Of a stretch of 64,000 nt of DNA, positions 35,605 through 54,421 are shown one piece after another (the first letter of the stretch is position 1; the number at the start of each line of letters is the position of its first letter). The notes beneath the pieces are model-generated. The model saw nothing but the letters and a program-made list of their open reading frames with translations. It made no database searches and was not told the DNA's origin. The stretch covers positions 1,612,001-1,676,000 of the forward strand of contig NZ_CP118950.1 in the NCBI RefSeq assembly GCF_029024465.1, in the 5' to 3' direction. Origin of the DNA: Lactococcus garvieae subsp. garvieae (GTDB taxonomy: Bacteria; Bacillota; Bacilli; Lactobacillales; Streptococcaceae). The translations under genes and the position numbers were made by a program.

Positions 35605-35755
35605 CTCTCCCCCTCTTTTCTTCACTATTGATGGTTTGAGCGGTATCACTCTAAATAGCAGATTTATCCTGCGAAACAGAGGAGCTTTGCTCTTCTTTAA
35701 GTTTAACATTTTCTTTCAAATTTTTGACTCAAACTGCCTTCATTTATTTATATTA

Positions 35756-35920
35756 AGCAGTTCGCTACTGCTAAAGCTCAAGTGTTAAACTTGAAGTAGA
35801 TAGCTGTGGATTAGTTCCCAACTCCAATCGCTTGACGATTAGTGAATGGCTCTAGCCACAGCTTTTTGTTCAATTGGTAATTAGTTTGATAACGCTAGAC
35901 GTTTTATATCTAATATGGCT
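35756..35920 (+). ncRNA. Candidate IS110 bridge RNA (target and donor loops)
   Basis: The non-coding segment before the IS110 transposase can fold into two small hairpins (AGCAGT/ACTGCT 35756-35772; CAAGT/ACTTG 35779-35793). Two stem-internal loop-hairpin units follow. Unit 1: AGCTGTGG/CCACAGCT (35802-35809 with 35856-35863) around an inner AATCG/CGATT hairpin, leaving unpaired strands 35810-35825 and 35841-35855. Unit 2: ATTAG/CTAAT (35880-35884 with 35910-35914) around AACG/CGTT, leaving 35885-35890 and 35904-35909. IS110 bridge RNAs carry one target-binding and one donor-binding loop of this kind in this position. Ends are approximate and the fold was done by eye. Confidence 0.6.
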
Positions 35921-35979
35921 ACAAGACAAAAAGTGCGTGGAGTTATCACTGTGAGCTAAATTTTATCTAGGAGAACTAT

Positions 35980-37140
35980 ATGACACTTTATGTTGGAATC
36001 GATGTTTCTAAATTCAAACATGATCTCGCAATTCTTGAAGACCAAGGTGAAATCATCACAAAAAACTTACGCTTTGAAAACTCCTCTCAAGGTTTTCAAA
36101 TTTTAAAAGACCATTTGGAATCTCTCGAAAATCCAATTTCTGAAATCCATATCGCTCTTGAAGACACCGGACATTATGGTGATAACCTCATTGCATTTCT
36201 TCAAAAGTTAAGTTACTCTGTATTTACATATAATCCATTGCTTATCAAAGAATTTGTCAAATCACAGACACTCCGTAAATCCAAGACAGATAAAAAGGAT
36301 GCCCTTGTAATTGCTCGAAAATTACTCAATGACTCTTATTCTGAACGCTTTATCGTCGAACCTCAAATGCGTGAACTCAAAGAATTAACACGATATCAAA
36401 ACCGCCTCATACATGACCGTTCTAAGGCCAAAACTTTGTATGTTCGTGTATTAGATATTATCTTTCCTGAACTAGCGAAAATCGTGACAAGTCCTCACAA
36501 TCAATACGTTTATTAGCTTCTCACAAGATATCCCTCAGCTTCAAAGATTAGACATGCACATTTTAATTCGTTGCTCAAAATCAAACGTTTAAAAGCAGAT
36601 AAAGCTAATCAAATCCAACAAGCTGCTCAAGATACAATCGGAAATCCATCATTCGCTCTACAACTGGAATTGACTCAACTCATCGCAACCATTAGACATC
36701 TTACAAGCCAAATTGATGAAATTCAAAACCGAATCAACTCAATTTTATACGAACTCGACTCTCCTATTACTTCAATTGCAGGTATTGGAGAACGCTTAGG
36801 TGCTACCATCTTAGCTGAAATTAAGAACATCAATAACTTTAAGAATCCTGCTCAACTTCAAGCCTATGCAGGACTTGAACCTTCCATTTATCAATCTGGA
36901 ACCTTAGACACTACAGGGCGTATGGTCAAGAGAGGTTCTCCTTATCTTCGTTATGCACTGATGCTCGCAACAACATGTGTATGTCGCTTCTCACCGCATT
37001 TCCAAACCTACCTCGCCCTGAAACGAAGTCAAGGTAAGCATTATTACGTAGCCATTTCTCACGCTGCTAAGAAGCTCATTCGAGTAATTTTTCATCTCCT
37101 CAAAACTAATCAAACCTTTGATGAAAACAAACTAGCCTAA
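35980..37140 (+). pseudogene. IS110-family transposase, interrupted by an amber codon
   Basis: 386 codons in one frame, broken only by TAG at 36514-36516. The N-terminal RuvC-like DEDD domain has LYVGIDVSKFKHDLAIL (Asp), IALEDTGHYGDN (Glu) and SKTDKKDALVIA (the Asp pair). After the stop the frame continues LLTRYPSASK and HAHFNSLLKIKRLKAD. It leads to the Tnp_20 domain with SIAGIGERLGATILAEI and a catalytic-serine region EPSIYQSGTLDTTG. AGGAG lies 6 nt before ATG 35980. A single base change probably created the stop, so decay is recent. Suppression or restart at a downstream codon is possible but unlikely to give active enzyme. Confidence 0.85.
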
Positions 37141-37290
37141 ATAAATCCGCCCTCCCTCCACAAAAAATAATTTTTTAAACTTGCACTCTTGCAAGACTTT
37201 TTGTGTGCCTTCAACTATTTGTTAAACCTTTTAGTTTCAAGACACCTTATTCTTGATTTTTAATATAGTTTTTAATTTTTTGATAAGAAA

Positions 37291-37318
37291 AAAGAAGTTA
37301 TATCTCATAACTTCTTTT
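37291..37318 (-). terminator. Terminator of the LPXTG protein gene
   Basis: AAAGAAGTTAT/ATAACTTCTTT hairpin with T residues on the minus strand. Confidence 0.75.
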
Positions 37319-37323
37319 TGGTA

Positions 37324-38859
37324 TTATTTATTTGCTTTCTTAAAGCGGAAGATAGAAACGACTGTAGCCAAAGCTATAAGGATTAGTCCTAAGATGATGC
37401 TCATCATCGTCATTCTTTCATTCTCCCCTGTGGCAGGTAAAGCGTGTTGTGTTGTAGATATTGTTCCTTTATTATTGTTTTTATCCTTAGAATCTGATTT
37501 CTTCTCAGGTTTTGGTTCAGGGAGCACCGGATTCACTTTATTTTTAGTATACACGTAAGTTACGGTTTGAATTTGTTCTGTGAATTGACCAGTTATATTA
37601 CCTTGAACCTCTTTGAAAGTGTAACCTTTAATTTTTTTCTTTTCAGTACTATAGCCTTCTCCAACAGTTCCTGATTTCACAATATCTTCTGAGATTTTGT
37701 TTCCATCTATGTCTACATATTTAGCAAGAACTATCCCAGTAATATTAGGTATTTCATTCTTAGTATACACATAAGTTACCTTTTGAGCTTTATCAGATAA
37801 AGTACCTTTCGCATTAGTAGGAAGCTTGCTTTCGTCTAAAGTATAACCACCAATTGTTAACTTATATACGTCCGTAGTAGCATCATAGGAATCTCCTACA
37901 TTACCACTGATAGTTTGCGGAGAAACACTAGGAATTGCGTTTCCATCTTCATCTACATAATTTACCGCAACATCTGCGGCTTTGACTGGATTCTTAGTAT
38001 ACACATAAGTTACCGTTTGAGCTTGGTCAGATAAAGTACCTTTGGCATTAGCAGGAAACTTACTTTCATCTAATGTATAACCATCAATAGAAGGTTGATA
38101 TTGAGAGGTAGTAGTATCATAAGCTTCTCCAAGTTTGCCGGAAATTGTTTGTGGCGCATGTAATTCTTTACCATTCTCGTCCTGATAAATTACTGTAAGG
38201 TCTGCGGCTTTGTCAGTAAACGGACTAAAATACAAGGGGCTCCATTCGTATGTACTACTACCGTATCTATATGTATGCTTAACAGCAACAACACCCTTAT
38301 TATCTGGAATTGCTTCCATAATTGGTTTTACAGAAAAAGTTGTTACAATAGAGGTTTTTTTAGGAATTGTACCCTCCACTAATACATTAAATGCTTTTAC
38401 TAACTCTAAATTTGCTGGAGCACTGTCAGTAAAGGTTACTCCATCAATAGAGTACTGTATTTTATACAAGTTTGAAGATGAGAGGCTTACAGTAGGTACT
38501 GAAGCAAGTTTTCCGTAGTTTGTTAATATAAAGCCATCAATATAGTCATTGACTGTAAAAGAATCTTCAGTGAGTGTTGTTGTTTTAACATTAATATTTT
38601 CAGGATTATCTTTATTTACTCTAAGACTCCAGACAAGTTGTCTGTTACCGGAATCATCAATTGGTTCTTGCCGATATGTTGATTGCGCATAAGATGTATT
38701 CGCATTTACATAAGCAGAAGCCTGAGCTTGTGCAATAATACTTGGGAATAACAACACTGCACTAATGAAAAGTAATACCGCTATACGGATTTTCTTCATA
38801 CCTCTAAATAAGCTATAAAATGAAATACGCTTTTCTTGATTTTTAATGTAGTTTTTCAT
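37324..38859 (-). CDS. LPXTG-anchored surface protein with three MucBP-type repeats
   Basis: 511 aa. An N-terminal signal peptide (about 1-47, hydrophobic core IAVLLFISAVLLF, cleavage near AQA) is followed by a unique domain (about 50-215). Three repeats of about 70 aa (about 217-430) follow, each with a [AV]-x-Y-x-D-x-[DN]G start, a G-x-[VL]G-[DE] turn and the end QTVTYVYTKN. After a Pro/Lys wall-spanning stretch come LPATGENE, a hydrophobic helix and FRFKKANK, a complete sortase A signal. Such proteins often bind mucin or host glycans, but binding is not shown here. AAAGGA lies before ATG 38859. Confidence 0.9.
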   Translation of the reverse strand: MKNYIKNQEKRISFYSLFRGMKKIRIAVLLFISAVLLFPSIIAQAQASAYVNANTSYAQSTYRQEPIDDSGNRQLVWSLRVNKDNPENINVKTTTLTEDSFTVNDYIDGFILTNYGKLASVPTVSLSSSNLYKIQYSIDGVTFTDSAPANLELVKAFNVLVEGTIPKKTSIVTTFSVKPIMEAIPDNKGVVAVKHTYRYGSSTYEWSPLYFSPFTDKAADLTVIYQDENGKELHAPQTISGKLGEAYDTTTSQYQPSIDGYTLDESKFPANAKGTLSDQAQTVTYVYTKNPVKAADVAVNYVDEDGNAIPSVSPQTISGNVGDSYDATTDVYKLTIGGYTLDESKLPTNAKGTLSDKAQKVTYVYTKNEIPNITGIVLAKYVDIDGNKISEDIVKSGTVGEGYSTEKKKIKGYTFKEVQGNITGQFTEQIQTVTYVYTKNKVNPVLPEPKPEKKSDSKDKNNNKGTISTTQHALPATGENERMTMMSIILGLILIALATVVSIFRFKKANK

Positions 38860-39088
38860 TAATATTCCTTTGCTGATTATTTTAATTTAAAACTTCACTG
38901 TCTACTTACAGCTTTTAGAGTGTTGGTAAAATGTTAATTTTCTCGACACACAATGCCACTAAAGGTTGAAATTAAGGCATTTATATTATTATCTAACATC
39001 CTAAAATTGATTACTATTAAAAAGTAGTACCTCTACATTTTATCATGAAAGTGTGATATACTTGAGTTACGTTATAGTAACAAACATA

Positions 39089-39128
39089 AACAAGAGTCAG
39101 TAAAATTAACATTTTGTTGACTCTTGTT
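39089..39128. terminator. Hairpin terminator
   Basis: AACAAGAGTCA / TGACTCTTGTT, 11-bp perfect stem with an 18-nt loop and a short T-run. Confidence 0.65.
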
Positions 39129-39230
39129 TTCTCATTGACACATAAAACAAAGCATTGAAAAATTTCTTTTATGTTTTATATTTAACTTTTTAAATAGTTT
39201 GTTATTTACTTCCTTCTCCTAATTTCACAT

Positions 39231-39262
39231 AAAAAAAACGCCTGCCATTTCTGACAAGCGTT
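39231..39262 (-). terminator. Original chromosomal fba terminator, now detached from fba
   Basis: Minus-strand AACGCTTGTCA-GAAA-TGGCAGGCGTT followed by T8. It aligns without gaps to the hairpin next to fba at 54628-54653, and is separated from fba by the 15.4-kb element. Confidence 0.75.
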
Positions 39263-39284
39263 CTTTTATTCGTATTTATAAAGC

Positions 39285-39303
39285 TGATTAAGCTTTGTTT
39301 GCT
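39285..39303. repeat. Left attachment repeat of the mobile element
   Basis: TGATTAAGCTTTGTTTGCT, identical over 19 bp to 54676-54694, which is the last codons and stop of fba. The adjacent 48 bp to the left also align gaplessly with the sequence beside the right copy (35 of 48 identical by my count). Confidence 0.88.
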
Positions 39304-39470
39304 CACAATCAAAGATTGTTTCGCAGATCAAGACTTATGCTTTATTTGCTGAATTTAGCATAAAAATTTTTATAGTTCCGCATGTTTCTAAAATTTTTGC
39401 TGTTATCACTTTTATTCAAGGTTCTTAAAAATTTTCATATTCTATAAATCTAAATAAATCTATGAAAAGT

Positions 39471-39505
39471 GTGGCAGATTTATGGCAAGTTTAATTATGT
39501 GGCAA
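39471..39505. repeat. Integrase arm-type repeats, left end
   Basis: Three copies of T[AG]TGGCA in direct orientation at 39471, 39482 and 39499. The same heptamer recurs near the right end of the element. Confidence 0.55.
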
Positions 39506-39590
39506 TAAAATCATTTCACCAAAATCAAGAAAACTAATATCATACTCCACTATAAGCGTCAAGTTTCTTGTTATAAACACTAAATAATAT

Positions 39591-39696
39591 TTAATCTTTC
39601 CAATTTCTATGAAAGTGGTTACCAGCGTTATTCTCTACAAAAATTTGTTTAAATAACAACATCATTTGTTCTTTATCTTCAGTAAATGTTTCTGCT
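39591..39696 (-). pseudogene. Detached 3' end of the RloC-like gene
   Basis: Minus-strand codons ETFTEDKEQMM, LLFKQIFVENNAG, NHFHRNWKD and stop (39591-39593) lie immediately left of the IS3 element. Joining them to the main fragment after deleting the IS and one GCT copy restores one uninterrupted frame. Confidence 0.9.
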
Positions 39697-39774
39697 TGGA
39701 GCTATACTATAAAAGTAGACACAAATATGTGTGTTATAATCTGTCTAAGAAGACACAAAAATGAAAGGACTTTT

Positions 39775-40050
39775 ATGTCAGGCTTTAAACGTTACGACGA
39801 GGAATTCAAACAATCTCTCGTCAACCTCTATCAAACAGGTAAAACTCAATCCGAACTCTGTAGAGACTATGGCGTCTCCGTCTCTGCTCTTGCAAAATGG
39901 ATTAAGCAGTACTCTCAAGTTCGTCTTGAAGATAATACGGTGTTGACTGCCAAACAGATTCAAGAATTACAAAAAAGGAATGCACAACTTGAGGAAGAAA
40001 ATCTGATCTTAAAAAAAGCGAGTGCCATATTCATGCAAAACTCCAAGTGA
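39775..40050 (+). CDS. IS3-family transposase OrfA
   Basis: 91 aa from ATG 39775 (AAGGA upstream). HTH_Tnp_1-type helix-turn-helix (DEEFKQSLVNLYQTGKTQSE, LCRDYGVSVSALAKWI) followed by a leucine-zipper-like coil (ELQKRNAQLEEENLILKKA). Near the 3' end is A AAA AAA (40011-40017), a classic -1 slippery heptamer. A shift there enters the orfB frame and makes the OrfAB transposase. Confidence 0.93.
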   Translation: MSGFKRYDEEFKQSLVNLYQTGKTQSELCRDYGVSVSALAKWIKQYSQVRLEDNTVLTAKQIQELQKRNAQLEEENLILKKASAIFMQNSK

Positions 40051-40916
40051 GATTAAAAGCAGTCTATAGACTCCGATTTGAACACACGACAGTTATGCTC
40101 TGTCGTGTTTTACATGTCAATCGTTCCACCTACTATAACTTCATTAACAAGAAGCCTTCGAAGCGTGAAATAGAAAATCAACGCTTGAGAAAATTACTCC
40201 TTGAGATTTATATGAAAGCTAAGAAAAGAATTGGAACGAGAGCTTTTAAAATCATTCTTCTGCGTGATTATGGCGTTAATATTTCTGAAGGCCGTATCTT
40301 ACGACTTCTCAAGTCTATGACACTCCCTAAAATGTCGACCATTAAACCTCGGGTTAAATCAAAACACTCTCCTGCATTTTCTTCTGATAATCTCCTTAAA
40401 CAAGAATTTAATCCGAAGTCCCCGAATCAAGTTTGGACAACTGATTTCACTTATATTTCTATAGGACCTAAGCGTCACGTTTATCTCTGCGCCATTCTTG
40501 ACCTCTACTCTAGAAAATGCATCGCTTGGAAAGTAAGTGATAAGATTGATGCTAAACTTGCTTGTGACACCCTAGAGATGGCTATAAATAAGAGAAAACC
40601 TAAGGAACCAATTATTTTTCATTCAGATCAAGGGAGTCAATTTAAATCAGCTTCCTTTAGAAAAATATTAGATGAGCATCAGTTACTTGCTTCTTACTCT
40701 AAACCTGGGTATCCTTATGATAATGCCGTAACTGAGGTCTTTTTCAAGTACCTTAAACAAAGAGAAATTAATCGAAGAACTTATCACACCATTCAAGAGG
40801 TTCAACTCTCTTGCTTTGAATACATCGAACAATTCTACAACAACTATAATCCTCATTCTGCCAACAATGGTTTAACTCCAAATCAGAAGGAAGAAAAATA
40901 TTTTAAGAAAATATAG
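40047..40916 (+). CDS. IS3-family transposase OrfB (catalytic)
   Basis: 289 aa counted from the GTG overlapping the orfA stop; normally expressed by -1 frameshifting from orfA, since the frame is open back to 40011. HTH_21-like N-terminus, then the DDE integrase core: WTTDFTYISI (first Asp), FHSDQGSQFKS (second Asp) and a Glu in AVTEVFFKYLKQRE, closing with YNNYNPHSANNGLTPNQ. No disabling change is seen. Confidence 0.94.
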   Translation: MRLKAVYRLRFEHTTVMLCRVLHVNRSTYYNFINKKPSKREIENQRLRKLLLEIYMKAKKRIGTRAFKIILLRDYGVNISEGRILRLLKSMTLPKMSTIKPRVKSKHSPAFSSDNLLKQEFNPKSPNQVWTTDFTYISIGPKRHVYLCAILDLYSRKCIAWKVSDKIDAKLACDTLEMAINKRKPKEPIIFHSDQGSQFKSASFRKILDEHQLLASYSKPGYPYDNAVTEVFFKYLKQREINRRTYHTIQEVQLSCFEYIEQFYNNYNPHSANNGLTPNQKEEKYFKKI

Positions 40917-40922
40917 CTCATT

Positions 40923-43034
40923 TTATGTCCAATTATTTGACATTAGTCCAGCTGATAAATCATCAATAGAATGAGAATTAACATTAAAAAGTTTCAAATA
41001 TTGTTCATTATCCTTATAAAACTTTGATTGATTTATTGAATTAAATTTCATATAAGTTTCGATGATCCTTCTCATAGAATTAAGCATTGAATTTTTGTGA
41101 CCACATAGATACAAATCTTTTAGCTCAATCCAAAGTGATTCATAGCTCGTTTTAAAGTCTTCTTTCTCACTTAATATTTGAGTAAAGTTTCTATTCGTAA
41201 TACGATAAAAATTACATTTATCATATTTTGTTTTCCCCTTTTCATCCTTAAAATATCCTTGAGGTTGAACATTCAAATAAAAATGAATGTTATGTGTGAG
41301 AATAACAATAAAATCTTTTTGATGATTAAATTTTTTTACTTCTTTTCCAGAATATAGTTTCTGAAGCTCATTAATAATCAAGTATTGCATCATATCATCA
41401 TTGGAACTCATCGGATCATCAAAAACAATAATTTTTTTACTTCTAGTATTTTCATCAATTGCTTCTAATCTTTCAATAAAATAAAGAAATGCAATCACAT
41501 TTTTTTCACCCGTAGAAAGCTCCTTAACACCTCTATATTTTCCATCTTGTTTTATTCGATAATATCCTGAATCTCCGTCACAAAAATCCAATTCCCATTG
41601 AACTTTCAGACGTAACTTTTTGTTGATATCCTCTACTGCTTGTTTTTCAGCTATTGGTTTTAATGTAAAAATTTCCCGATTTAATTTTTGAATTTCTTCT
41701 TCTAAAACTTTTTTTTTAGCTTCTTCAACTTCATATTCCTTTTTAGATTCATCAAAATTTTTCTGTGCATTCTTTAATTCATTTTCTAATACAGGATATT
41801 GAGCCCTCTCTATCAAATTATATATTTCATGATAACGTAACTTATCTCTAGCTTCTTTTTGTTCATTAGCTAAATTGTTTGAATATTCATTATTCTTGGT
41901 GACTATCTTGTTGAAATTAGATAAGTCTATATTAGAGCAAATGGAGATTTCTAATTTGGCACTCTCAGAAAAAAGATTTTTCTCTTTTACTTCTAGTGCG
42001 TTTAGTAAAATTTCCAAGAATGATTGAACTTCTCGCTTTTGCTCCTCCACTTGTTCAATTTCATAATTCACTTTGCTAATGAACTCTGGATAAAAATCTT
42101 TAGAACTTAAATCTATTTCTTTTAATCTTTTTATTTCATTTGAGATTTGGACTTTTCCGTTAGATATCCTACCTCTCAATAATTTCACTTCATCTGCTGA
42201 AAAATAACTTTCTAATTCTTCTAGGGTACTGCTTGAAACTTCATTCCCACAGAAAGCACATGTATTCTTTCCATCATGCTGATGTATCTCTAAGCCTTTT
42301 TGAGCGAAATTGATTCTTTCTTGTGAACTTAATCTTGCAATTCTTGTTTTCTCTTCAACTTTGCTTTGAATTATCTCGTTAACAGAGATAAGATATCTTT
42401 CATAGTTAGAGCTATTAAAATCTATCTTATCAATTATTCTAGATTCAGATTTTAGTAAATCTTTAATTCTTGCTACCTCAATTTCTTGCAACTGATATTT
42501 CTTTGACATTTCGTCTTTAAAAGTCTTTTTATTGTATCCTCGTTGATTATCGGTTAGAGCAGGATTTTGATGAAGACTAATATATTTTCCAGATTCATAA
42601 AAAAATTTATCAATCTTTTTCTCCTTTTCATCCAGCTGATTTTTATAATTTTTCCTTTTAGTAAAATAATTATCTATATTTTTTCCATCAGGTTCTTCTA
42701 AAGAGAAAACTATTCTTTCTTTCTCATCCTCCTTAACAAGTTTAACTTCCTCCAATTCTCTTATTTTTTGCTGGTTCTCCCCTGCGCCTATAGCCAGAGC
42801 AAATGCATTCAACTTATCATTTTCTCCTAAAACAGATTCAAACCCTTTAAAGATATGGACATCAAATTCATTACTTTTTTGAATTTCAATTGCATCCGTC
42901 AGTGTAGATTTACCCGATCCATTTTTTGCAAATATAAAAGTTTTATTTTTTAGCTCAAGATCATTACCTAAAAATAAAGGCTCATCTGCATCATTAAATT
43001 TTATTTTAGTTAAATCAATTTTGGTATCAATCAT
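40923..43034 (-). CDS. RloC/PrrC-like ATPase-anticodon nuclease, C-terminus replaced by IS3
   Basis: 703 aa as it stands, 728 before the IS. AAA_13-type: Walker A FAKNGSGKSTLTDA (about 34-47), long coiled coils (about 85-480) with a zinc-hook CAFC (about 263), ABC signature LSTGEKN, Walker B IIVFDDPMSSND. The C-terminal domain has R-x3-E (MRRIIETYMKF) and, 29 residues after the Glu, NSHSIDD: the Arg-Glu-His triad of PrrC/RloC, which cleave the tRNA anticodon loop when phage disables restriction. The last eight residues (GLMSNNWT) come from the IS end. It follows the AlwI-type restriction genes. Activity of the truncated form is uncertain. Confidence 0.8.
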   Translation of the reverse strand: MIDTKIDLTKIKFNDADEPLFLGNDLELKNKTFIFAKNGSGKSTLTDAIEIQKSNEFDVHIFKGFESVLGENDKLNAFALAIGAGENQQKIRELEEVKLVKEDEKERIVFSLEEPDGKNIDNYFTKRKNYKNQLDEKEKKIDKFFYESGKYISLHQNPALTDNQRGYNKKTFKDEMSKKYQLQEIEVARIKDLLKSESRIIDKIDFNSSNYERYLISVNEIIQSKVEEKTRIARLSSQERINFAQKGLEIHQHDGKNTCAFCGNEVSSSTLEELESYFSADEVKLLRGRISNGKVQISNEIKRLKEIDLSSKDFYPEFISKVNYEIEQVEEQKREVQSFLEILLNALEVKEKNLFSESAKLEISICSNIDLSNFNKIVTKNNEYSNNLANEQKEARDKLRYHEIYNLIERAQYPVLENELKNAQKNFDESKKEYEVEEAKKKVLEEEIQKLNREIFTLKPIAEKQAVEDINKKLRLKVQWELDFCDGDSGYYRIKQDGKYRGVKELSTGEKNVIAFLYFIERLEAIDENTRSKKIIVFDDPMSSNDDMMQYLIINELQKLYSGKEVKKFNHQKDFIVILTHNIHFYLNVQPQGYFKDEKGKTKYDKCNFYRITNRNFTQILSEKEDFKTSYESLWIELKDLYLCGHKNSMLNSMRRIIETYMKFNSINQSKFYKDNEQYLKLFNVNSHSIDDLSAGLMSNNWT

Positions 43035-43284
43035 CTCAATCTCTCACTTTTATTTATTAGTTAATTATAACATTTTATTAAAGCGGATACATTTTTTTAT
43101 TGTTTCCCATAAACTGGATAAATCTATATTTTAAGAGTTTTTTTGTTCAAAACGTCATTTGTTAAGTCCTGATAGTATTTTTTATTTAGTGAAATCTATT
43201 TCAACTGATATCACTTTCATAAAAGTTTTTAACCATTTTGCATCTCTTAATTTTATTTGTAGTAACATTTTAATTTTAAACTGC

Positions 43285-43317
43285 AAAAAAACTACGACCC
43301 CAACTGAAATCATAGTT
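43285..43317 (-). terminator. Terminator after the AlwI-type endonuclease gene
   Basis: Minus-strand AACTATGA...TCGTAGTT followed by T7. The RloC-like gene therefore probably has its own promoter within 43035-43284, a 250-bp stretch in which I see no gene. Confidence 0.65.
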
Positions 43318-43324
43318 ATTTTGA

Positions 43325-45376
43325 TTATATTTCATTCATGATTTTTTCAACTATTGAATTTCTCCAACTATTTTTAACTAAAACTGGAGATGAATCAATA
43401 TTTGAGTTTATTTCTGCAAGTATAGCTGTATCTCTCTTGCTAAGTTTCAAAAGATTCATTACTTCCTTAGTAGTAAATGCAAAAATATTTAAACCTGACA
43501 AGCATCCATTATTTTGTTGGGTTCCATTTAATTCAATAAACTGCGTTCCTCTAAAAACGTTTAGAACGTTATTATCTAATTCATTGGCAATAAAAATAGA
43601 CTGGGTAGAAATAGAGCTATTTTCAAGTGCAAAATTGATTGAATGACGAATGACAGGCTCCATTTCACCACGTTTTTGAGTGTTCATGTCCATCAATGTT
43701 GCTTCAATTAAAAGTGCATACTCATCCGTTATAATTTCAATATCTCCAGCTCCACCACCTCTATGAGATAACGGCAATTTATTTGCATCTAGAGTAACTT
43801 GAAATGAGGTACTTAATTTGAAATTCTTAGTTTCTGAAAGATGATACCAAGCAATCGTCAATATATATTCATAGATTGTCGGAATTGTTGCACTATCCGT
43901 CACTAAGCCAAAAACTGATTCATCATCCCTAACTGAAATATTTTCTAAAATATTAATAATCTTTTCTCGTGGAAAATGAGACTCTACAAATTCACGATAT
44001 TCTTTTTCTCTTTCATCTTCAATGTGTTGAGAAATTACAATTAAATCCGTTGTATTAAATTTTTTACCAATAATATTGAGTAGTTCTATTTCATCCTCAG
44101 GAGAAATATTCAAGATTTCTGATAACGTTAAATCTTGAAACCATGAGCTATCCTCATTTTCCTCATATGATTTATATGAACTGCTTCCCGATAATTCAAA
44201 AGAATCTCCTAAAATATTCAATAGTGGTTCGAACAGCCACTTACTATTTAAATTGACTAAACCATTATCAAATTGAATGATACCTGTAACTTGAAATGCC
44301 CTTCTCCCCATATCAGAATACTCTCTAATTAAATCATCATGCTTTGAAAAAATAAACTCAAGATAAATGTCGTAGCTATCATTGCTTAATAGTGGATTAC
44401 CGATATTATTTTCAAGGAAAGTAGTTATGGAATCATTTCTTCTAATCGTAAATGGAATTTTCCCTTCACTAAAAGCTTTTTTTATTTTGTCATCTCGGCT
44501 AAGTCGCTTTATTGTTTCAAATGAAGACTCACTGTGATTATCAATCAAGTCAATTAACGAAAGAACAAACTTTTTATACAGTAACGATGTATCATTACTA
44601 TCACGATTATAGAAATACTTAATAAAATTTTCGTCCGTAAAATCTTTATTTTGAAACATTTCTTTGACAGCTTTTAGTTCCTCTTCTGTTCGCAATGTTG
44701 TTGAGAAAGTCTCAATATAGTATTCTTCAAAAGTTTTATAGCTTCGATAAACTTCTGAATAATCATCTATTATTTTTTGGATTTCAAAATCGGCTTGACT
44801 AGGTTTTACAGATTCAACAATTTTTAAAAAATCATTTTGCGGAATGTTTTCATATCTGGATAAAAATTTAATCGCAAATCTGAAGTTATTAAAATAGTCA
44901 TCAGTCTTTGAATCATAAATGCGTAACTTTAGATATTGTCTTAGGTAAATTAAATTATCTACATCCAATCCTAGAATTTTTTCAATATTATCAGCAGGTT
45001 TAATATTATCTTGCAAATATTTTTTACCAACATCAGTAATTCTTCGTTTAGAGTCTAACAATCCACTCTTTACAATCGCATTTGTTAAAGTTCTCCCTCG
45101 TAAACCAACTCTCCCTTTTGAAGGAGGTGTGTAATTTCTAGAACGAGCAAAATCTCGAAATAAGTTTACTCCTTCCTCGCTTTCAATTTTCACAATTTCT
45201 TCTAAAAAGTTACAATAAAATTCTTCTTGAGCTAGAGTGTTTCTCTCCCATCTTTCTTGAGATAACATGAACTTCTGAACTTGTTGAAGAATAATTTTAT
45301 TCACTTCAACAAATTGATTTACACGAATTGAGGTATCGCCCATATTAAAAATACTTGTATTACTATCGAGCCTCAT
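43325..45376 (-). CDS. AlwI-family type II restriction endonuclease
   Basis: 683 aa. The C-terminal third has the family core: HRGGGAGDIEIITDEYALLIEATLMD, a PD-(D/E)xK-like D-x10-E-A-T, then QKRGEMEPVIRHSINFAL. These match what I recall of RE_AlwI (EVTL-x-GxxQ, EPVxRH). N-terminal and middle parts look like winged-helix DNA-recognition domains (SKGRVGLRGRTLTNAIVKSGL and MGRRAFQVTGIIQF). AlwI itself cuts near the asymmetric site GGATC; this enzyme's site is not readable here. It has its own -10 just after the methyltransferase terminator. Confidence 0.85.
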   Translation of the reverse strand: MRLDSNTSIFNMGDTSIRVNQFVEVNKIILQQVQKFMLSQERWERNTLAQEEFYCNFLEEIVKIESEEGVNLFRDFARSRNYTPPSKGRVGLRGRTLTNAIVKSGLLDSKRRITDVGKKYLQDNIKPADNIEKILGLDVDNLIYLRQYLKLRIYDSKTDDYFNNFRFAIKFLSRYENIPQNDFLKIVESVKPSQADFEIQKIIDDYSEVYRSYKTFEEYYIETFSTTLRTEEELKAVKEMFQNKDFTDENFIKYFYNRDSNDTSLLYKKFVLSLIDLIDNHSESSFETIKRLSRDDKIKKAFSEGKIPFTIRRNDSITTFLENNIGNPLLSNDSYDIYLEFIFSKHDDLIREYSDMGRRAFQVTGIIQFDNGLVNLNSKWLFEPLLNILGDSFELSGSSSYKSYEENEDSSWFQDLTLSEILNISPEDEIELLNIIGKKFNTTDLIVISQHIEDEREKEYREFVESHFPREKIINILENISVRDDESVFGLVTDSATIPTIYEYILTIAWYHLSETKNFKLSTSFQVTLDANKLPLSHRGGGAGDIEIITDEYALLIEATLMDMNTQKRGEMEPVIRHSINFALENSSISTQSIFIANELDNNVLNVFRGTQFIELNGTQQNNGCLSGLNIFAFTTKEVMNLLKLSKRDTAILAEINSNIDSSPVLVKNSWRNSIVEKIMNEI

Positions 45377-45406
45377 ATATTTTCTCCTGACTGTTTATTT
45401 AGTATC

Positions 45407-45412
45407 ATTATA
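45407..45412 (-). promoter_or_regulatory. -10 of the endonuclease gene
   Basis: Minus-strand TATAAT abuts the T-run of the methyltransferase terminator. A -35 would fall within that hairpin and is weak. Confidence 0.45.
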
Positions 45413-45413
45413 A

Positions 45414-45445
45414 CAAAAAAATCAGGAACGCTACATTTCCTGATT
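45414..45445 (-). terminator. Terminator between methyltransferase and endonuclease
   Basis: Minus-strand AATCAGGAA-ATGTAGCG-TTCCTGATT followed by T7, overlapping the methyltransferase stop. Confidence 0.8.
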
Positions 45446-46388
45446 AATAGTTTTTTATTAAGACCTCAATAGTCTCTGAATGTTTAGCTTTTGATTGATA
45501 ATTGCTGTTGTTATAATCAAACTTCAAAGGAATTTTTGAAAATTTTCCATATTTTTTACTCCACTCAACCAACTCGCTATTTATTTTCCCTTTATGTGCT
45601 ACTACATTAGATAAAGCAAATTTTGCACCAATAGAATCAATCTTATCTAGATAATCAAATAAATCTAAATCATCTTGAGTGGTCCAACCACCTCTTTCAT
45701 TATAAGCAGCAGTTGTAATTCTATAAGGTGGATCAGCATAAATAAAGTCATCCTTACTGACATCAATAATATTCCGAAAATCTTGATTTCGAAAATCAAA
45801 ATTATTAGAAGACAAAACTTCTTGAAAAGAAATAAGTTTTGATTTCATCTGTGAATTAAAATCTCTTTTCCCAACTGGTAAATTAAATTGCCCTTTTGAA
45901 TTAAATCTTACTTGATTATTGAATCCAAACACAATTAATAAATAGAATAAGATATCAATGTCTTCCGAGACTGACATATTATAGTCATCTCGTAAAATTT
46001 TATATTTTTCTTTATTAAATGCACTAACATCTCTTTTATCCGTTAATAAATATGGCTCATATCCATATTTTTCCGTATCTGATAATCCATATTTCCTAAT
46101 GTAAAAATAAATTTTTTCAAGGATATTATCTATGTTTTCTTTACTCAAATAATTCAACAAACTTATGACATGAGGTTCTATATCATTAACTACAATATCT
46201 TTACCTATATCATAATTCTCCAATTGATATTCTCTTGCCATATTTACTGATACAACCCCTCCACCAGCAAACAAATCAATAAATCTTTCAAATTTATTTG
46301 CTTCTGGAAATAATGGGAAAAGTTGCGGTAATAATCGATATTTTCCACCAGTATAGTTCAAAGCACTTTTAAGAAATGGATTTTTCAA
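45444..46388 (-). CDS. DNA adenine methyltransferase (Dam/D12 class)
   Basis: 314 aa. Class alpha N6-adenine methyltransferase: SAM motif X LNYTGGKYRLLPQL, motif I FIDLFAGGGVVSVN, catalytic motif DFIYADPPYRITTAAY. Size and order match the Dam/M.DpnII group (D12). With the second methyltransferase just upstream (8 bp gap) it would protect the two strands of an asymmetric site against the AlwI-type enzyme. The sequence recognised is an inference from the endonuclease family. Confidence 0.92.
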   Translation of the reverse strand: MKNPFLKSALNYTGGKYRLLPQLFPLFPEANKFERFIDLFAGGGVVSVNMAREYQLENYDIGKDIVVNDIEPHVISLLNYLSKENIDNILEKIYFYIRKYGLSDTEKYGYEPYLLTDKRDVSAFNKEKYKILRDDYNMSVSEDIDILFYLLIVFGFNNQVRFNSKGQFNLPVGKRDFNSQMKSKLISFQEVLSSNNFDFRNQDFRNIIDVSKDDFIYADPPYRITTAAYNERGGWTTQDDLDLFDYLDKIDSIGAKFALSNVVAHKGKINSELVEWSKKYGKFSKIPLKFDYNNSNYQSKAKHSETIEVLIKNY

Positions 46389-46396
46389 AACATCAC

Positions 46397-47593
46397 CTAC
46401 TTTACTTTACATAGATATAGTAACTCTTTATGGTTTTTTATTTCAGATTTTCCAGTTGTGAATGGGTTAAAATCTGTTTCAAAAACCTCTACATTTCCTT
46501 TAATTTCCAAAGTATCAAAAATCTCTTTGCCTGAAATTTTAGCATTAGATCGAGAATTTCCTTTTTTCTCCATGTTGTTATAAGAAACCAAGATATATTT
46601 TGCACTTATATTCGAAATTAAATCACGGAATGCCTCTGGAGCTTTAGATTTTGTATATGCAGAGCCCTTTTCAGAACGATTAACAGCTTTACGAGCTACT
46701 CCTTCGACTTCTGGCTTCTTCCACTCAGCAATATTTTCAAGAACATGATAAGCATTCTCATACCCTCTAGAATTATATGGAGTATCTATATACACTAAAT
46801 CTGCTTCAATTTCTCTTACAAGTTCATTCGCATCCATGTTAAAAATAAAATTTTTTTGATGGCTTTGAGTAATATCTGGAACTCTCAAAACTAAGTTATT
46901 ATTCGTATCCATCTTTTTACGATAAGCATCAAAATGTCCTACTGTATTCGCTATTTTATCCATTGCATAAATCAATGAGGTAAGTAAAATATCCTTTTCT
47001 CTTTGCTTTAAATCCCTATTACCAGCAATAGATTCTCTAATTCCATCTATTTTTTGAGAATTCTTTATACTAAAATATCGATCCCCAAAATTTTCAGTTA
47101 CATAGCCACTAAAGCCTACTTCCCTATTTAATTCATCAATTATTTTTTCAATTTTATTCATATCAATATTTTCGTTTCCAAACCAAGTATTGTAACTAAC
47201 AAAATTGCTGTAAAGTAAGTCATTAACAATGATTTTTTTTCCTTGTTTAGAGAATAGGTCAGCAACAACCCCTGTTCCACCAAAAATATCGGCAACTGAT
47301 TGAACATTTTGGGTTTGCTTAGAAACCACTTCAGAAATAAAATTTAACATCTTTTGCTTACTACCTAAGTAACGTCTATTTTGAATTTCTAATTTTTTAT
47401 TTGATGATAAAACGTGACGTTGATTCCCTGATTTCAACTCAACTATCTTTTTTACTTGTTCAATATTCTGTTCTAGCCATAAGTAACCCTTATTATCTTT
47501 TTTAGGACGCTCAATCTCTCCATGTCGGATATAATTTTGAAGCGATTGGCGAGTTATATTTAGTTCCATTTCAAGTTCTGCTGTGCGCATCAT
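46397..47593 (-). CDS. DNA adenine methyltransferase with N-terminal helix-turn-helix
   Basis: 398 aa from ATG 47593; an ATG two codons upstream is too close to AAGGAG. Residues 1-50 form a MerR/excisionase-like HTH (ELEMELNITRQSLQNYIRHG, then a wing with KGYLWLEQNIEQVKK). The rest is a D12-class enzyme: RRYLGSKQKMLNFISEV, VADIFGGTGVVADLF and LVYIDTPYNSRGYENAY (DTPY in place of DPPY). The HTH may let the enzyme bind its own promoter and time restriction expression, as C proteins do elsewhere; no separate C gene is present. First gene of the restriction block. Confidence 0.88.
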   Translation of the reverse strand: MMRTAELEMELNITRQSLQNYIRHGEIERPKKDNKGYLWLEQNIEQVKKIVELKSGNQRHVLSSNKKLEIQNRRYLGSKQKMLNFISEVVSKQTQNVQSVADIFGGTGVVADLFSKQGKKIIVNDLLYSNFVSYNTWFGNENIDMNKIEKIIDELNREVGFSGYVTENFGDRYFSIKNSQKIDGIRESIAGNRDLKQREKDILLTSLIYAMDKIANTVGHFDAYRKKMDTNNNLVLRVPDITQSHQKNFIFNMDANELVREIEADLVYIDTPYNSRGYENAYHVLENIAEWKKPEVEGVARKAVNRSEKGSAYTKSKAPEAFRDLISNISAKYILVSYNNMEKKGNSRSNAKISGKEIFDTLEIKGNVEVFETDFNPFTTGKSEIKNHKELLYLCKVK

Positions 47594-47622
47594 AGGCATC
47601 GCTCCTTTTTTACAATGAACTA

Positions 47623-47631
47623 ATTATATCA
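47623..47631 (-). promoter_or_regulatory. Extended -10 of the restriction-modification operon
   Basis: Minus-strand TGATATAAT, about 30 bp before the first methyltransferase start. Confidence 0.5.
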
Positions 47632-47700
47632 CTTCTATGAAAAAAATTCTATTCGGAAATTCATAAATGTCAATCACAATAAATTAGATAATATCCACTA

Positions 47701-47736
47701 AAAAAGCTTGTCACAAATTTTGTAACAAGCTTTTTT
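47701..47736. terminator. Bidirectional-type terminator
   Basis: AAAAAGCTTGT...ACAAGCTTTTT, 11-bp stem, between the lipoprotein gene and the methyltransferase promoter. Confidence 0.8.
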
Positions 47737-47818
47737 CTTTAGTTTCATACCAAAACTGTATTTATCATAGCGAAAAAACTATACATGATTTTTTTATTTA
47801 CGTTCTTATCGTCGTTAA

Positions 47819-48856: not shown

Positions 48857-48981
48857 ATTTATCAATCTCCTAATCCAACTATTTTAAGTATATATTTTAT
48901 TATTATAGAGCTTATTAGTATAAACAATTTATTCTCTATCCACACTCACACTTAAAGTAAATTTATGAACATAACCAACAC

Positions 48982-48991
48982 TAATTGTACT
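48982..48991. repeat. TAATTGTACT motif, copy 1
   Basis: First of four exact copies within 1 kb (others at 49407, 49927 and 49973). It lies between the divergent lipoprotein and XRE genes. Confidence 0.5.
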
Positions 48992-49091
48992 ATTTTTTTG
49001 ATATTTTTTCCACTAAAAGTAAAAACATAACACTTAAAGAAAAAGCAAAACAACTATACTGTAAATAATACTTTTAGAATAGAGGAACACT

Positions 49092-49403: not shown

Positions 49404-49406
49404 CAA

Positions 49407-49416
49407 TAATTGTACT
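49407..49416. repeat. TAATTGTACT motif, copy 2
   Basis: Lies just after the XRE stop codon and about 80 bp upstream of the next gene. The surrounding 11-mer ATAATTGTACT is shared with copies 3 and 4. Confidence 0.5.
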
Positions 49417-49497
49417 CCTTTTCTAATGGCTTTTTCTTTTATTTTTTGCTAAACTATATTTAATATATATATCTGTGAAAAGTTGGTGTTATTAACT

Positions 49498-49893: not shown

Positions 49894-49926
49894 TATTTTT
49901 GTATATCATATTTTTTTATACGAAAA

Positions 49927-49936
49927 TAATTGTACT
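49927..49936. repeat. TAATTGTACT motif, copy 3
   Basis: Lies after the ribbon-helix-helix gene, 46 bp before copy 4, in front of the replication/mobilization operon. Confidence 0.5.
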
Positions 49937-49972
49937 TCTAACTTGACGTCTATAACGAATTGTGATTAAATA

Positions 49973-49982: not shown

Positions 49983-50049
49983 TCGATTTATACACTCGTT
50001 TAATTCTGGTATATAATATTTTTTAAACATGAAAGGAGGTCATTTTTTT

Positions 50050-50394: not shown

Positions 50395-50921
50395 TGAAAA
50401 AATTACGTGAACCTAACGAAACTTTAGTTAACTTTCTAAAAAAGATTATTCTAACTTTACTTGTGACTACAATAGTATCATGGGGACTGGTCATTTATAT
50501 CATTCCACACAATATTATCCCATTTCTACAAGTAACATTCTTAAAATACCAATCAAAAATATTATTCGTAGCTTTCTTATCAACATTTCTATTAGTTTTA
50601 TTCACTACACTAGATTTTCTATATTTTTCGAAAAACAGTACTCTTGCTAATGTTCAGATGAGATATAAGCTCCTATCTTTTTCTAATTCTTATATAGAGG
50701 ATGGTGCAGATGTATTTTTTAAGATATTTGATGACAGTGTTAGAATAGAAATATTTTTTAATGGTACAACTTCTGATGAAGAAGTGTTAGGGAAAAAGTT
50801 CTCTCAATGGCTTAAATTACCATTAATTGAATATCATGAACAACACGCAAACATTCCCGCTATTTATATTTTGGGAAAGACTCCTGAAAGAAAAGATGGG
50901 ATAGAGCTTTTAAATGATTGA
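50394..50921 (+). CDS. Membrane protein of the mobilization module
   Basis: 175 aa, GTG start overlapping the upstream stop. Two transmembrane helices near the N-terminus (about 15-37 and 55-75) and a soluble C-terminal domain of about 95 aa. It overlaps the FtsK-like gene by 8 bp. The N-terminal helix pair followed by a detached ATPase is reminiscent of an FtsK/TcpA coupling protein split in two, with this gene as the membrane anchor. That is an inference from order and topology only. Confidence 0.6.
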   Translation: MKKLREPNETLVNFLKKIILTLLVTTIVSWGLVIYIIPHNIIPFLQVTFLKYQSKILFVAFLSTFLLVLFTTLDFLYFSKNSTLANVQMRYKLLSFSNSYIEDGADVFFKIFDDSVRIEIFFNGTTSDEEVLGKKFSQWLKLPLIEYHEQHANIPAIYILGKTPERKDGIELLND

Positions 50922-51678
50922 ACCTGATTATAATGACATTCCTTTGTATAATAATGTGTTTTGGTCTTTAATATCCGAATCCTGCCATATACTTTTAATT
51001 TCCCCAAGTGGTGCAGGGAAAACTATGTTACTCTCATTTCTGGGTGCCATGGTTTTAAAACGCAAGCACAAGCTATACCTTATTGATGGAAAACAAACTT
51101 CATTTGGAGCAACATTTAGAAGTGTAGGAATCCAAACAGCAACAACTCCAAGCGAAATCATCAATATGCTCTCATATTTAGTAAAAGAGATGGAAAAAAG
51201 CTATTCTGAGATTTTCAACTCAGAAAATACAGGACTTAATACAAATTTCTCTGATTTTTCCTTACCTGCTCATGTTCTGATATTTGATGAAGTACTTTCT
51301 GCACTAGATTCAGGTTCAAAACAGGAAAATGCTGAAATGGTACGTTTACTTAAACAATTAGCATTAAAAGGAAGAATGGCAGGTTTTATTATCATCATTG
51401 CTGCTCAAAGAATTTTAGCAACAGATTTGCCAAAATCAATAACTGAACAGTGCCAAACTCGTTTGCTTATGGGAGCAAATATTTCTGAAGAATTGTACCA
51501 TGTTACGCTTGGTGGATATAAGAAAGATTTGACAACTGGTTATCATGGAGGAGTTGGTAAAGGTTATGTAGTCACTCCAAAAACAGGATTAACCTATTTT
51601 GAAGCACCATACATGGATTTTTCTAAAATAAATTTTAAGGAACTTCTTGAAAAATTAGTACACAAAAATAATGAATAA
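50914..51678 (+). CDS. FtsK/SpoIIIE-like DNA-translocase ATPase (coupling-protein type)
   Basis: 254 aa, no membrane helix. Walker A LLISPSGAGKTMLLSFLG (about 29-46), Walker B AHVLIFDEVLSAL, then GFIIIIAAQRILATDLPKSI and TRLLMGAN, typical of FtsK/TcpA proteins. It is short, close to a bare motor domain. In integrative elements such proteins feed the relaxase-DNA complex to the secretion channel or drive plasmid-like replication. It lies directly before an origin-like region and the HUH protein gene. Confidence 0.85.
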   Translation: MIEPDYNDIPLYNNVFWSLISESCHILLISPSGAGKTMLLSFLGAMVLKRKHKLYLIDGKQTSFGATFRSVGIQTATTPSEIINMLSYLVKEMEKSYSEIFNSENTGLNTNFSDFSLPAHVLIFDEVLSALDSGSKQENAEMVRLLKQLALKGRMAGFIIIIAAQRILATDLPKSITEQCQTRLLMGANISEELYHVTLGGYKKDLTTGYHGGVGKGYVVTPKTGLTYFEAPYMDFSKINFKELLEKLVHKNNE

Positions 51679-51854: not shown

Positions 51855-52769
51855 ATGAATGATGATTTTTCAATAAATAATAATTCTTATGTCACTTTAA
51901 CCATAATGAATGATATTTTTGAAATTCAATACATGGAAAAATCAAATTTCACGAATAACATTCAAAAATTAGACGCAGACAGATATGTCGTTTTAGATAC
52001 TGGTGAAATCAAAGAATTTGATAAATCAGAAAATCGGAGCGAAAATAAAAATTCATTAAATCAAACTATGAAAAGTTTGCGTTATCTGATCAATGCAAAT
52101 TTTTCAGGACAACCTAATGAATTATGGATTACACTTACTTTTGCTGATTCCTCATTAGCAAGAAACACCAGTACTGTTTACCTTTGCTTTAACAAATTTA
52201 TTAAACGATTGAGATATAAGTATGGAAAAGATTTAGAATATATAGCTATCCTTGAACCACATGAAATTAAAGATGGAGATATAAAAAATTGGCATGGCTA
52301 TCATTTTCATCTTCTTCTAAAATCTTATATAAGAAAAAATCTATATATCCCTCATGAAGATTTTGAAAACGTATGGGGGTTAGGGTGGTGTAGAATCGAA
52401 AGGCTCAATGATGTTGACAATATTGGAGCATATCTTAGTGCCTACTTGACCAATATTGAAGAAAGTTCTGAAAATTCCAACGATTTAAACAATAAAGCTC
52501 AGAAGAAATACATTAAAGGTGCTAGACTCTGGCTTTATCCAAAGGGAATACGCTTATATCGTAAAAGTAAAGGAATAAAAAAACCAACTCGAATTAAAAT
52601 GACCTATTCAGAAGCTAGAGCTATTATTGGAGTTGAACCACATTATCGAAAAAAAATACCGATTGAGATAGATGATTTTCAAAATACTATCATCTATGAA
52701 CAATTCAATCGACGACGAAAAAAGAACCTTTCTAAAAAGAAAGATTCTCCTATAATTGGTAAGCACTAA
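51855..52769 (+). CDS. HUH-type replication initiator / relaxase-like protein
   Basis: 304 aa. Three HUH motifs in order: motif 1 ELWITLTFADSS, motif 2 NWHGYHFHLLLKS (the HxH metal site, about residue 150), motif 3 NIGAYLSAYLTN (the two Tyr four residues apart, about 195, candidate nicking residues). The C-terminus is very basic (NRRRKKNLSKKKD). It resembles rolling-circle Rep proteins of small plasmids and phages. In integrative elements the same fold can start conjugative transfer. AGGAG lies before the ATG. It probably acts on the adjacent origin-like region. Confidence 0.82.
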   Translation: MNDDFSINNNSYVTLTIMNDIFEIQYMEKSNFTNNIQKLDADRYVVLDTGEIKEFDKSENRSENKNSLNQTMKSLRYLINANFSGQPNELWITLTFADSSLARNTSTVYLCFNKFIKRLRYKYGKDLEYIAILEPHEIKDGDIKNWHGYHFHLLLKSYIRKNLYIPHEDFENVWGLGWCRIERLNDVDNIGAYLSAYLTNIEESSENSNDLNNKAQKKYIKGARLWLYPKGIRLYRKSKGIKKPTRIKMTYSEARAIIGVEPHYRKKIPIEIDDFQNTIIYEQFNRRRKKNLSKKKDSPIIGKH

Positions 52770-52823: not shown

Positions 52824-53072
52824 ATGATTAAAATAAACTATGTTCCAGTTGAAAACTGCGAAGCAGAATGGGGTAATAAACAAGCCATCTGTAAAAGATT
52901 TGAAGGCTTAAAAATTAAAACTCTCAATGCTCTACTTACAGAAATGAGAAACACTTTTGAGTTTCAAAAATTTATTATTAATCCCACTCAAAAAATTGTG
53001 ATGATAAATTTTGAAGGTTTTCTTCTCTTCTTGCGTTATCGTCAAGAACACCGTTATAAAAGGAGTGCTTGA
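52824..53072 (+). CDS. Excisionase-like small protein
   Basis: 82 aa. One compact domain: AEWGNKQAICKRFEGLKIKT, LNALLTEMRNTFEFQKFIIN, INFEGFLLFLRYRQEHRYKR, giving a winged-helix-like pattern and basic tail as in Xis proteins of Firmicutes elements. It lies one base before the integrase gene (TGATG overlap). The role, steering the integrase to excision, is inferred from place and size. Confidence 0.72.
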   Translation: MIKINYVPVENCEAEWGNKQAICKRFEGLKIKTLNALLTEMRNTFEFQKFIINPTQKIVMINFEGFLLFLRYRQEHRYKRSA

Positions 53073-54421
53073 TGGATAATATTAAAATTAGTAATATCAC
53101 AATAAAATCTATTAAAAATAATTTGAAAAAAGGAAGCAAAGAAGTCAAATTTCGTTCTTCTTTCAAAAATCCTTTAACCAATAAAAGAAGAGAATTTCTC
53201 TCAGAATGGTACACCGTAAATGAAAATTATGATGATAAAGGAAACCTGAAAATTTCCTCACAGCTTCAAAGTATTGTTAAGCGTGACATGCAAAACCTTG
53301 CCAATACGCTTTATCAAGACATTTCAAAAGTTCAACTCATATCAAAAGACAATTTAACTATTGAAAAAATTTGGTCTGATTGGCACAATGATAGAGTTAT
53401 CAAGAAAAAAGTAGCTCCCAAAACTCTTGCAGGAGAAGTCGGACGATTTAATAACCATATCACTCGTTTTATCCCAAGGAACAGTATTCTAAAAAATATC
53501 CGTTTCGAGTTGATTCAAAGCTTACTTGATGATTTGTATCCCTTAGGAAATCACAAGCGAGTTGCACAAGCTATCAAATCTGACTTAAATTCAATTTATA
53601 CCTTTGCGATAAAAAAGAATTATATTTTACCTGAGCAAAACCCAATGCCTTATATTTCTGTTGAAGAAAAAGGATTGAGTGAACAGATCAAACAACTTGA
53701 AAATAACAATATTAAAAACCATTATTTGGAAAAAGAGGAGCTACATGAGGTGCTAAGTATTGTCAGAGAGCATAATCAACAATATGCTAGAATTTTGGAA
53801 TTTCAAGTTTTAACTGGAATGCGAATCGGAGAGGCTCTTGGGTTAAAAAGGTCTGAAATTTCCTTTGGTAGCCAGTTAGCAACGATCAAACGAACACGTG
53901 CAACACATGGAGGGGCTTCTAAAGAAGATTACGAAGGCGACGTTAAAAATAAGCAAAGTTATCGTACAATTAAGCTATCAGCTAAAGCTCTGCTTCTTCT
54001 TCAAGAAGAACTAGAAATTAACCAACATCATATTATAGGCAATCCTGACTATAAAGATAAAGGTTGGATATTTACTTCTAAGAGTTCCAATAAAAGTGAT
54101 TATAATGGTACTCCTCTTCATTACTCAGTAATCAATAATTTTCTTAATTCGTCTGAAACAGGGAAAATTACTAAAACGGGGCATGTTAAAAAAGTTGGCA
54201 TAAACATTGATAATCGACTTAGCTTTAACAAGCATATAAGTACTCATATTTTCCGCCATACATTTGTCAGCCATATGGCAGAGCAAGGAGTTCCCTTGAT
54301 TGCTGTTCAACGTTATATAGGTCACAAATCAGGAAGTAAAATCACAGAAGAAATATATACACATATCACAAAGAAAATGAGCGATACAATAACAGAATCA
54401 ATAGATTCGCTAATTGATTAA
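53072..54421 (+). CDS. int: Tyrosine-family site-specific integrase
   Basis: 449 aa from ATG 53072 (AGGAG 6 nt upstream). An N-terminal arm-binding domain is followed by a SAM-like core-binding domain (about 95-205) and the catalytic domain (about 225-445). The catalytic domain has Arg in LTGMRIGEALGLKRSEI, His-x-x-Arg in HIFRHTFVSHM, a second His in YIGHKSGSKI and the nucleophile Tyr in TEEIYTHIT. It sits against the right attachment repeat, as integrases of 3'-end-targeting elements do. Complete. Confidence 0.96.
   Translation: MDNIKISNITIKSIKNNLKKGSKEVKFRSSFKNPLTNKRREFLSEWYTVNENYDDKGNLKISSQLQSIVKRDMQNLANTLYQDISKVQLISKDNLTIEKIWSDWHNDRVIKKKVAPKTLAGEVGRFNNHITRFIPRNSILKNIRFELIQSLLDDLYPLGNHKRVAQAIKSDLNSIYTFAIKKNYILPEQNPMPYISVEEKGLSEQIKQLENNNIKNHYLEKEELHEVLSIVREHNQQYARILEFQVLTGMRIGEALGLKRSEISFGSQLATIKRTRATHGGASKEDYEGDVKNKQSYRTIKLSAKALLLLQEELEINQHHIIGNPDYKDKGWIFTSKSSNKSDYNGTPLHYSVINNFLNSSETGKITKTGHVKKVGINIDNRLSFNKHISTHIFRHTFVSHMAEQGVPLIAVQRYIGHKSGSKITEEIYTHITKKMSDTITESIDSLID

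Follow-up and report, generated by a model that had tools for sequence, protein, structure and literature searches.

An RloC-like gene split by an IS3-family element within an insertion at the aldolase gene of Lactococcus garvieae

The tRNA nucleases RloC and PrrC both join an ABC-ATPase to a C-terminal nuclease domain. RloC excises the wobble nucleotide, an activity that zinc inhibits. RloC, described from Geobacillus kaustophilus and Acinetobacter baylyi (Davidov and Kaufmann 2008, PMC2610378), has an ATPase split by a coiled coil, a CxxC motif, and a C-terminal R-x3-E followed by SH; it is defined by R-x3-E-x36-52-H and a length of 658 to 897 amino acids (aa) (PMC2610378). RloC has also been reported from Streptococcus mutans and Streptococcus thermophilus, and some RloC genes are linked to type I or III restriction-modification (R-M) systems. 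PrrC, from the EcoprrI-linked locus of Escherichia coli, carries a C-terminal R-x3-E...SHS, is 341 to 416 aa long without a coiled-coil insert, and always lies in a type Ic R-M locus. Here we describe a related gene in a 64,000-nucleotide (nt) stretch of Lactococcus garvieae subsp. garvieae (NZ_CP118950.1, positions 1,612,001 to 1,676,000; the whole stretch is called the window below). The protein resembles RloC in size class, split ATPase, CxxC, and C-terminal motifs, and in its clade (intact homologues of 697 to 797 aa, with the insert) some members likewise adjoin or lie within R-M loci of type I or III. It differs in that its gene adjoins an AlwI-like type II R-M operon, is interrupted by an insertion sequence (IS), and encodes a triad whose Glu and His are separated by 28 residues (E-x28-H). 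We label it RloC-like, not RloC, because this spacing lies outside the published x36-52. With a probability of roughly 70%, we read it as an RloC-like suicide ribonuclease gene, carried as cargo by an element at the aldolase gene, truncated by an IS3-family element, and most likely inactive.

An earlier examination of the letters of the window (the sequence-only reading) had noted an IS3 element, with GCT on both sides, splitting a minus-strand gene. The element (Table 1) has TGGA...TCCA ends with an inverted match at 18 of 30 terminal bases, and its OrfB scored 289.9 bits against the NCBIfam IS3 model (cutoff, 160). Its OrfA/OrfB organization, TGG...CCA type ends, and 3-bp duplication are those of the IS3 family, and we saw no differences. 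The 2.09-Mb genome contains eight copies, this one counted, that are 100% identical over 1,254 bp. Their shared ends coincide with those given by the sequence-only reading and fix the borders independently of the GCT duplications. Two other copies that we checked lacked matching 3-bp flanks, so the duplication is not universal among the copies.

Beyond the IS, the gene continues from position 39693 to 39591 in frame and without an internal stop, adding 33 residues (ETFTEDKEQMMLLFKQIFVENNAGNHFHRNWKD) before its stop codon. By count, 2,084 + 106 - 3 nt gives an uninterrupted frame of 729 codons with the stop and 728 without, which agrees with the 728-codon frame ending at 39591 that had been obtained earlier by removing the IS and one GCT. 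At the break point the homologues have ...DDLSAE(T/S)..., in which the A occurs only once; this supports counting one GCT as the duplication. What remains as an open reading frame (ORF) is the 703-codon form foreseen by the sequence-only reading, with the triad kept and the last 33 residues gone. The identification of an RloC/PrrC-like ABC-ATPase gene with an ACNase-type triad, split by an IS3 element, is supported, and its full frame is recognizable both from the remains and from 25 natural homologues.

These homologues came from searches of the genomes of the family, a named genome collection, plasmids, and viral contigs. Relatives at most 55% identical occurred in Streptococcus, Lactococcus, Lactobacillaceae, other Firmicutes, and Pasteurella oralis; no uninterrupted allele from the same species was found in these sets, the best homologue being 55% identical. 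We aligned the window protein with 25 uninterrupted homologues and took residue conservation from 24-sequence alignments. All 25 homologues continue past the break, with 39 to 53 residues after the conserved His where this was measured, and none ends naturally near residue 700, an outcome that the sequence-only reading had named as a possible refutation. Four proteins of about 700 aa (L008, L046, L044, and L047) were considered as candidates for such an ending and rejected, as they are shorter elsewhere and keep about 41 to 43 residues after the His.

The lost tail carries an F and an HF...W motif, whose F, H, F, and W each reach a conservation of 90% or more in the 24-sequence alignments, and AHF occupies the same place in a more distant relative (L021). 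In the AlphaFold model of an intact homologue (L034, from Streptococcus orisasini; mean predicted local distance difference test [pLDDT] score, 84.0), two helices (residues 710 to 723 and 727 to 735) follow the His loop in a block with pLDDT values of 78 to 89. In the model of the window's 703-aa form, residues 686 to 703 fall below 50, H688 included. The sequence-only reading had proposed comparing structures with and without the tail; in our comparison the intact homologue stood in for the joined protein. We take the model of the truncated protein as support and not as proof, because an IS-derived tail without aligned relatives lowers confidence by itself. Loss of function is likely because the conserved HF...W and the last two helices of the nuclease domain have been removed, and conservation and modeling together suggest that the truncated allele is most likely inactive. 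The earlier proposal that the insertion disarmed a toxin is therefore likely on these predictive grounds.

The protein matched Pfam AAA_13 (PF13166; 1e-82) and PADLOC PDC-S06 (PDLC04897; 3.2e-231), the latter over aligned model positions 1 to 697 of 727, with the last 30 positions of the model missing in the window gene. By profile the protein belongs to the same family as PDC-S06, a candidate label to which no mechanism has been attached. The Walker A and B motifs named by the sequence-only reading align with those of the homologues, and the H-loop (LTHN) is in place. Both cysteines of the CxxC motif are invariant, and long helices flank it on both sides in the AlphaFold models of L034 and of the 703-aa form, in keeping with the proposed coiled coil; the zinc hook itself is a prediction from the motif. 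A fold search returned an ABC/Rad50-type head, with Lamassu and retron ATPases among the matches through their heads. When a single protein or the family profile was searched against the sequences of solved structures, no PrrC or RloC entry came up, only weak ABC-transporter matches.

To compare the nuclease domain with PrrC, we used a profile of three PrrC proteins lying between hsd genes (L017 to L019). The R-x3-E and SHS of this profile align with the same residues in members of the clade (L008, 5e-10; L046, 5e-7). The window protein as a whole matched weakly (whole-sequence E value, 0.23); the nuclease domain alone gave an hhalign score of 24.9 (P = 0.0018), which none of 200 column-shuffled controls reached (best control, 21.3). 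From these alignments we take the triad residues to coincide with those of PrrC, a comparison that had been set beforehand as a possible refutation. The E-to-H spacing is x28 in the window protein and nearly the whole clade, x25 to x26 in two members, and x39 in L051. The full-length relative L021 has R-x3-E-x37-H, an RloC-like spacing, and its match to the family extends over its length (2e-30). The lengths of the intact homologues and of the 728-codon window frame also fit RloC. In the L034 model the C-terminal part is all-helical. Of the RloC/PrrC hallmarks listed by the sequence-only reading, the ABC-ATPase, the CxxC, and R-x3-E...H stood; as strict RloC hallmarks they are not supported, because of the x28 spacing and a HEPN motif that reads Kx6H (see below). 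By analogy, the protein probably works like RloC even though one published defining feature is absent.

The gene also has a wider context, absent from the sequence-only reading, that consists of an R-M operon and a carrier element. A segment of about 15.3 kb (39354 to 54678) is absent from three congeners (L093, L094, and L095). All three run from about 39353 straight into 54679, so the segment is an insertion, and it sits where the class II aldolase gene has its 3' end. It is bounded by TTA[AT]GCTTT[AG]TTTGCTGAA at 39335 to 39353 and 54679 to 54697, and the RloC-like gene lies at its extreme left, about 240 bp from the att-like repeat. The 3' end of fda is the integration site of ICESt1 and ICESt3 of S. 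thermophilus (PMC3234194), and elements at fda are common in Streptococcus salivarius (PMC7563491). By description, the window element resembles these in its 3' aldolase site and, as in the S. salivarius elements, its tyrosine integrase; it differs in that we recognized no conjugation machinery in it beyond an FtsK-like gene (plus a Rep-like gene). An Rfam scan of 38800 to 55000 gave no matches. Another repeat, GCTCACAATCAAAGATTGTTTCGCAGA, has one copy at the element's left end (39294 to 39353); it forms an array with a 46-bp period in the empty site of the congener genome G010 (L093, 2843 to 3084), and similar copies occur in G006.

Within the element, the RloC-like gene lies downstream of the R-M operon on the same strand, in the order two methylases, endonuclease, terminator-like hairpin, RloC-like gene. 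The R-M frames remain open. Seven related loci from the family carry this set of three R-M genes; in one the endonuclease has diverged, one runs into a contig end, and one has its methylases facing the opposite way. None of the seven has an RloC-like gene nearby, so that in streptococci the cassette occurs alone, and for these loci we rejected the idea that the AlwI-like operon normally carries one. Close homologues of the RloC-like protein are encoded within R-M loci of type I (L030, L031, L034, and L044) or next to type III genes (L035 and L038); the combination with an AlwI-like system was observed only in the window.

By analogy with RloC and PrrC, the intact protein would have acted as follows. 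Its Rad50-like ABC-ATPase and zinc-hook-type coiled coil would sense DNA damage, phage-linked cues, or a blocked restriction enzyme, and an ATP-dependent change would release the C-terminal PrrC-type RNase (R-x3-E...H). The released RNase would cut the cell's own tRNA, so that translation would stop and the phage would fail to multiply. The gene was carried beside the AlwI-like operon on the integrative element at the aldolase 3' end before a copy of the amplified IS3-family element inserted with a 3-bp duplication and removed the last 33 residues.

Several observations weigh against this account. The x28 spacing is shorter than in published RloC; the clade has K681-x6-H688 at the position of the HEPN RNase motif, Rx4-6H (PMC3710099), which the three PrrC loci show as R-x6-H; hhalign gives the isolated nuclease domain a probability of just 15%; and the listed Protein Data Bank matches of the fold search span residues 9 to 641 and barely cover that domain. 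Because of the short spacing and the K in place of R, the substrate and the cut may differ. The family could also be an ABC-ATPase effector that acts on a different RNA or has no nuclease activity at all; besides the spacing and the K, the fold relatives of its head include Lamassu and retron ATPases, which have other effectors, and the triad Glu is replaced by D or Q in a few members. We think this improbable, since the R and H are invariant, both motifs align with PrrC, and four homologues share with PrrC a location within type I R-M loci. The survival of the whole triad in the 703-codon ORF also counts against complete inactivation and leaves room for some residual activity. With the entire ATPase likewise upstream of the break and a frame that closes cleanly 8 codons inside the IS, the 703-residue form might still be made and work, the IS having removed an inhibitory or dimer-tuning tail and changed its regulation. 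This seems less probable again, given a tail present in 25 of 25 uninterrupted homologues with a nearly invariant HF...W (and AHF in L021), the predicted disorder from residue 686 on, H688 included, and the counter-selection that a constitutive suicide nuclease would presumably face.

That the split is an assembly artifact, in which identical IS copies led the assembler to join unrelated flanks, is very improbable. The eight identical copies and the two without matching 3-bp flanks would allow it, but the two flanks are parts of a single gene and share its frame, in the correct order and on the correct strand, and the duplication falls where homologues have a single residue. The relation to the neighboring operon is much more evenly balanced. 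The RloC-like gene and the type II operon may be unrelated cargo, so that the insertion has no bearing on restriction; we hold this to be about an even bet, and it is compatible with an IS-inactivated RloC-like nuclease. It is favored by the seven cassettes without a nearby RloC-like gene, by the hairpin separating the operon from the gene, and by A. baylyi RloC, which DNA breaks activate and for which R-M mutants behave as wild type (PMC3874168). Against it stand the repeated presence of homologues in type I or III R-M loci and the silencing of PrrC by its R-M partner (PMC2610378). Any cooperation between the window gene and its operon would be conjectural. More speculatively, the short-spaced clade could be an exchangeable second line, recruited on mobile elements by type I, type III, and here AlwI-like type II R-M systems, with the suicide arm repeatedly lost and restriction kept. 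We regard this as doubtful; if true, the window gene would be a natural example of the loss of the suicide arm.

The broken RloC-like gene is real, well delimited, and mostly as the sequence-only reading stated. It is a well-supported but ordinary case of probable loss of function in a known defense family that is already in defense databases, and an IS in a costly defense gene is unremarkable. Three points have some interest: the clade with short spacing, the neighboring R-M operon of type II (PrrC and RloC have been described as linked to types I and III), and the HF...W tail lost in nature, a clean truncation suggesting that this C-terminal segment belongs to the RloC-like nuclease domain. 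Defense-gene scanners would score the locus as near-full by PDC-S06 despite the broken gene.

Table 1. Features of the RloC-like locus, in window coordinates
Feature	Position	Strand	Remarks
RloC-like gene, native part 5' of the IS	40951..43034	-	residues 1-694 plus 2 nt of the following codon
Remaining 703-codon ORF	40923..43034	-	final 8 codons (GLMSNNWT) IS-derived; stop at 40923
Severed 3' part of RloC-like gene	39591..39696	-	ETFTEDKEQMMLLFKQIFVENNAGNHFHRNWKD codons and stop, plus one GCT copy
IS3-family element	39697..40950	+	1,254 bp; OrfA 107 aa (39727-40050), OrfB 289 aa (40047-40916)
GCT target duplication, left copy	39694..39696		flank of IS3-family element
GCT target duplication, right copy	40951..40953		flank of IS3-family element
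Walker A GSGKST, residues 39-44	42903..42920	-	alignment with homologues
CxxC (CAFC), residues 259-262, zinc-hook-type motif	42249..42260	-	both Cys invariant in 24 sequences
ABC signature LSTGEK, residues 506-511	41502..41519	-	alignment with homologues
Walker B/D-loop IIVFDDP, residues 535-541	41412..41432	-	alignment with homologues
R655-x3-E659 (R-RII-E) of ACNase-type triad	41058..41072	-	R655 invariant in 24 sequences; aligned with PrrC R-x3-E
H688 of triad (NSH)	40971..40973	-	invariant in 24 sequences; aligned with PrrC SSHS
Terminator-like hairpin between restriction and RloC-like genes	43290..43317	-	consensus scan only
AlwI-like type II restriction endonuclease, 683 aa	43325..45376	-	PF09491 2.5e-30; PADLOC REase_II 1.4e-122
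D12-class DNA adenine methyltransferase, 314 aa	45444..46388	-	PF02086 7.3e-33
D12-class DNA adenine methyltransferase, 400 aa	46397..47599	-	PF02086 9.3e-32
Left att-like repeat TTATGCTTTATTTGCTGAA	39335..39353		
FtsK/TcpA-like ATPase of carrier element	50914..51678	+	PF01580 8e-07
Replication-initiator/relaxase-like protein of carrier element	51855..52769	+	PF23343 6.3e-14
Tyrosine integrase of carrier element	53069..54421	+	PF00589 1.4e-22
Right att-like repeat TTAAGCTTTGTTTGCTGAA	54679..54697		3' end of class II fructose-bisphosphate aldolase gene (54679-55575, -)

Among the relatives, several genes are broken by stops, frameshifts, or truncation (L009/L013, L010, L040, L047, L054, and L055), as are plasmid loci L081 to L083 on Lactiplantibacillus plantarum plasmids. 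They may reflect recurrent loss of a costly gene, or errors in draft sequences. Because the set includes drafts, metagenome-assembled genomes, and a plasmid record (L080) whose ends fall at a cut in its origin, the decay rate is unreliable and we did not use it as evidence. The Gemella haemolysans contig L047 has two RloC-like genes about 5 kb apart (8932 to 11085 and 15821 to 17914), one with a stop and one intact, with type III methylase fragments nearby. A related gene in the Streptococcus constellatus prophage records MK448667, MK448839, MK448841, and MK448843 is annotated as "translation-disabling ACNase." In the window itself, a second stretch absent from relatives (35750 to 39205) lies between a DUF697 gene and the element. 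It contains a transposase-like gene split in two frames that looks IS110-like (35980 to 37140) and a MucBP/LPXTG surface protein gene (37324 to 38859).

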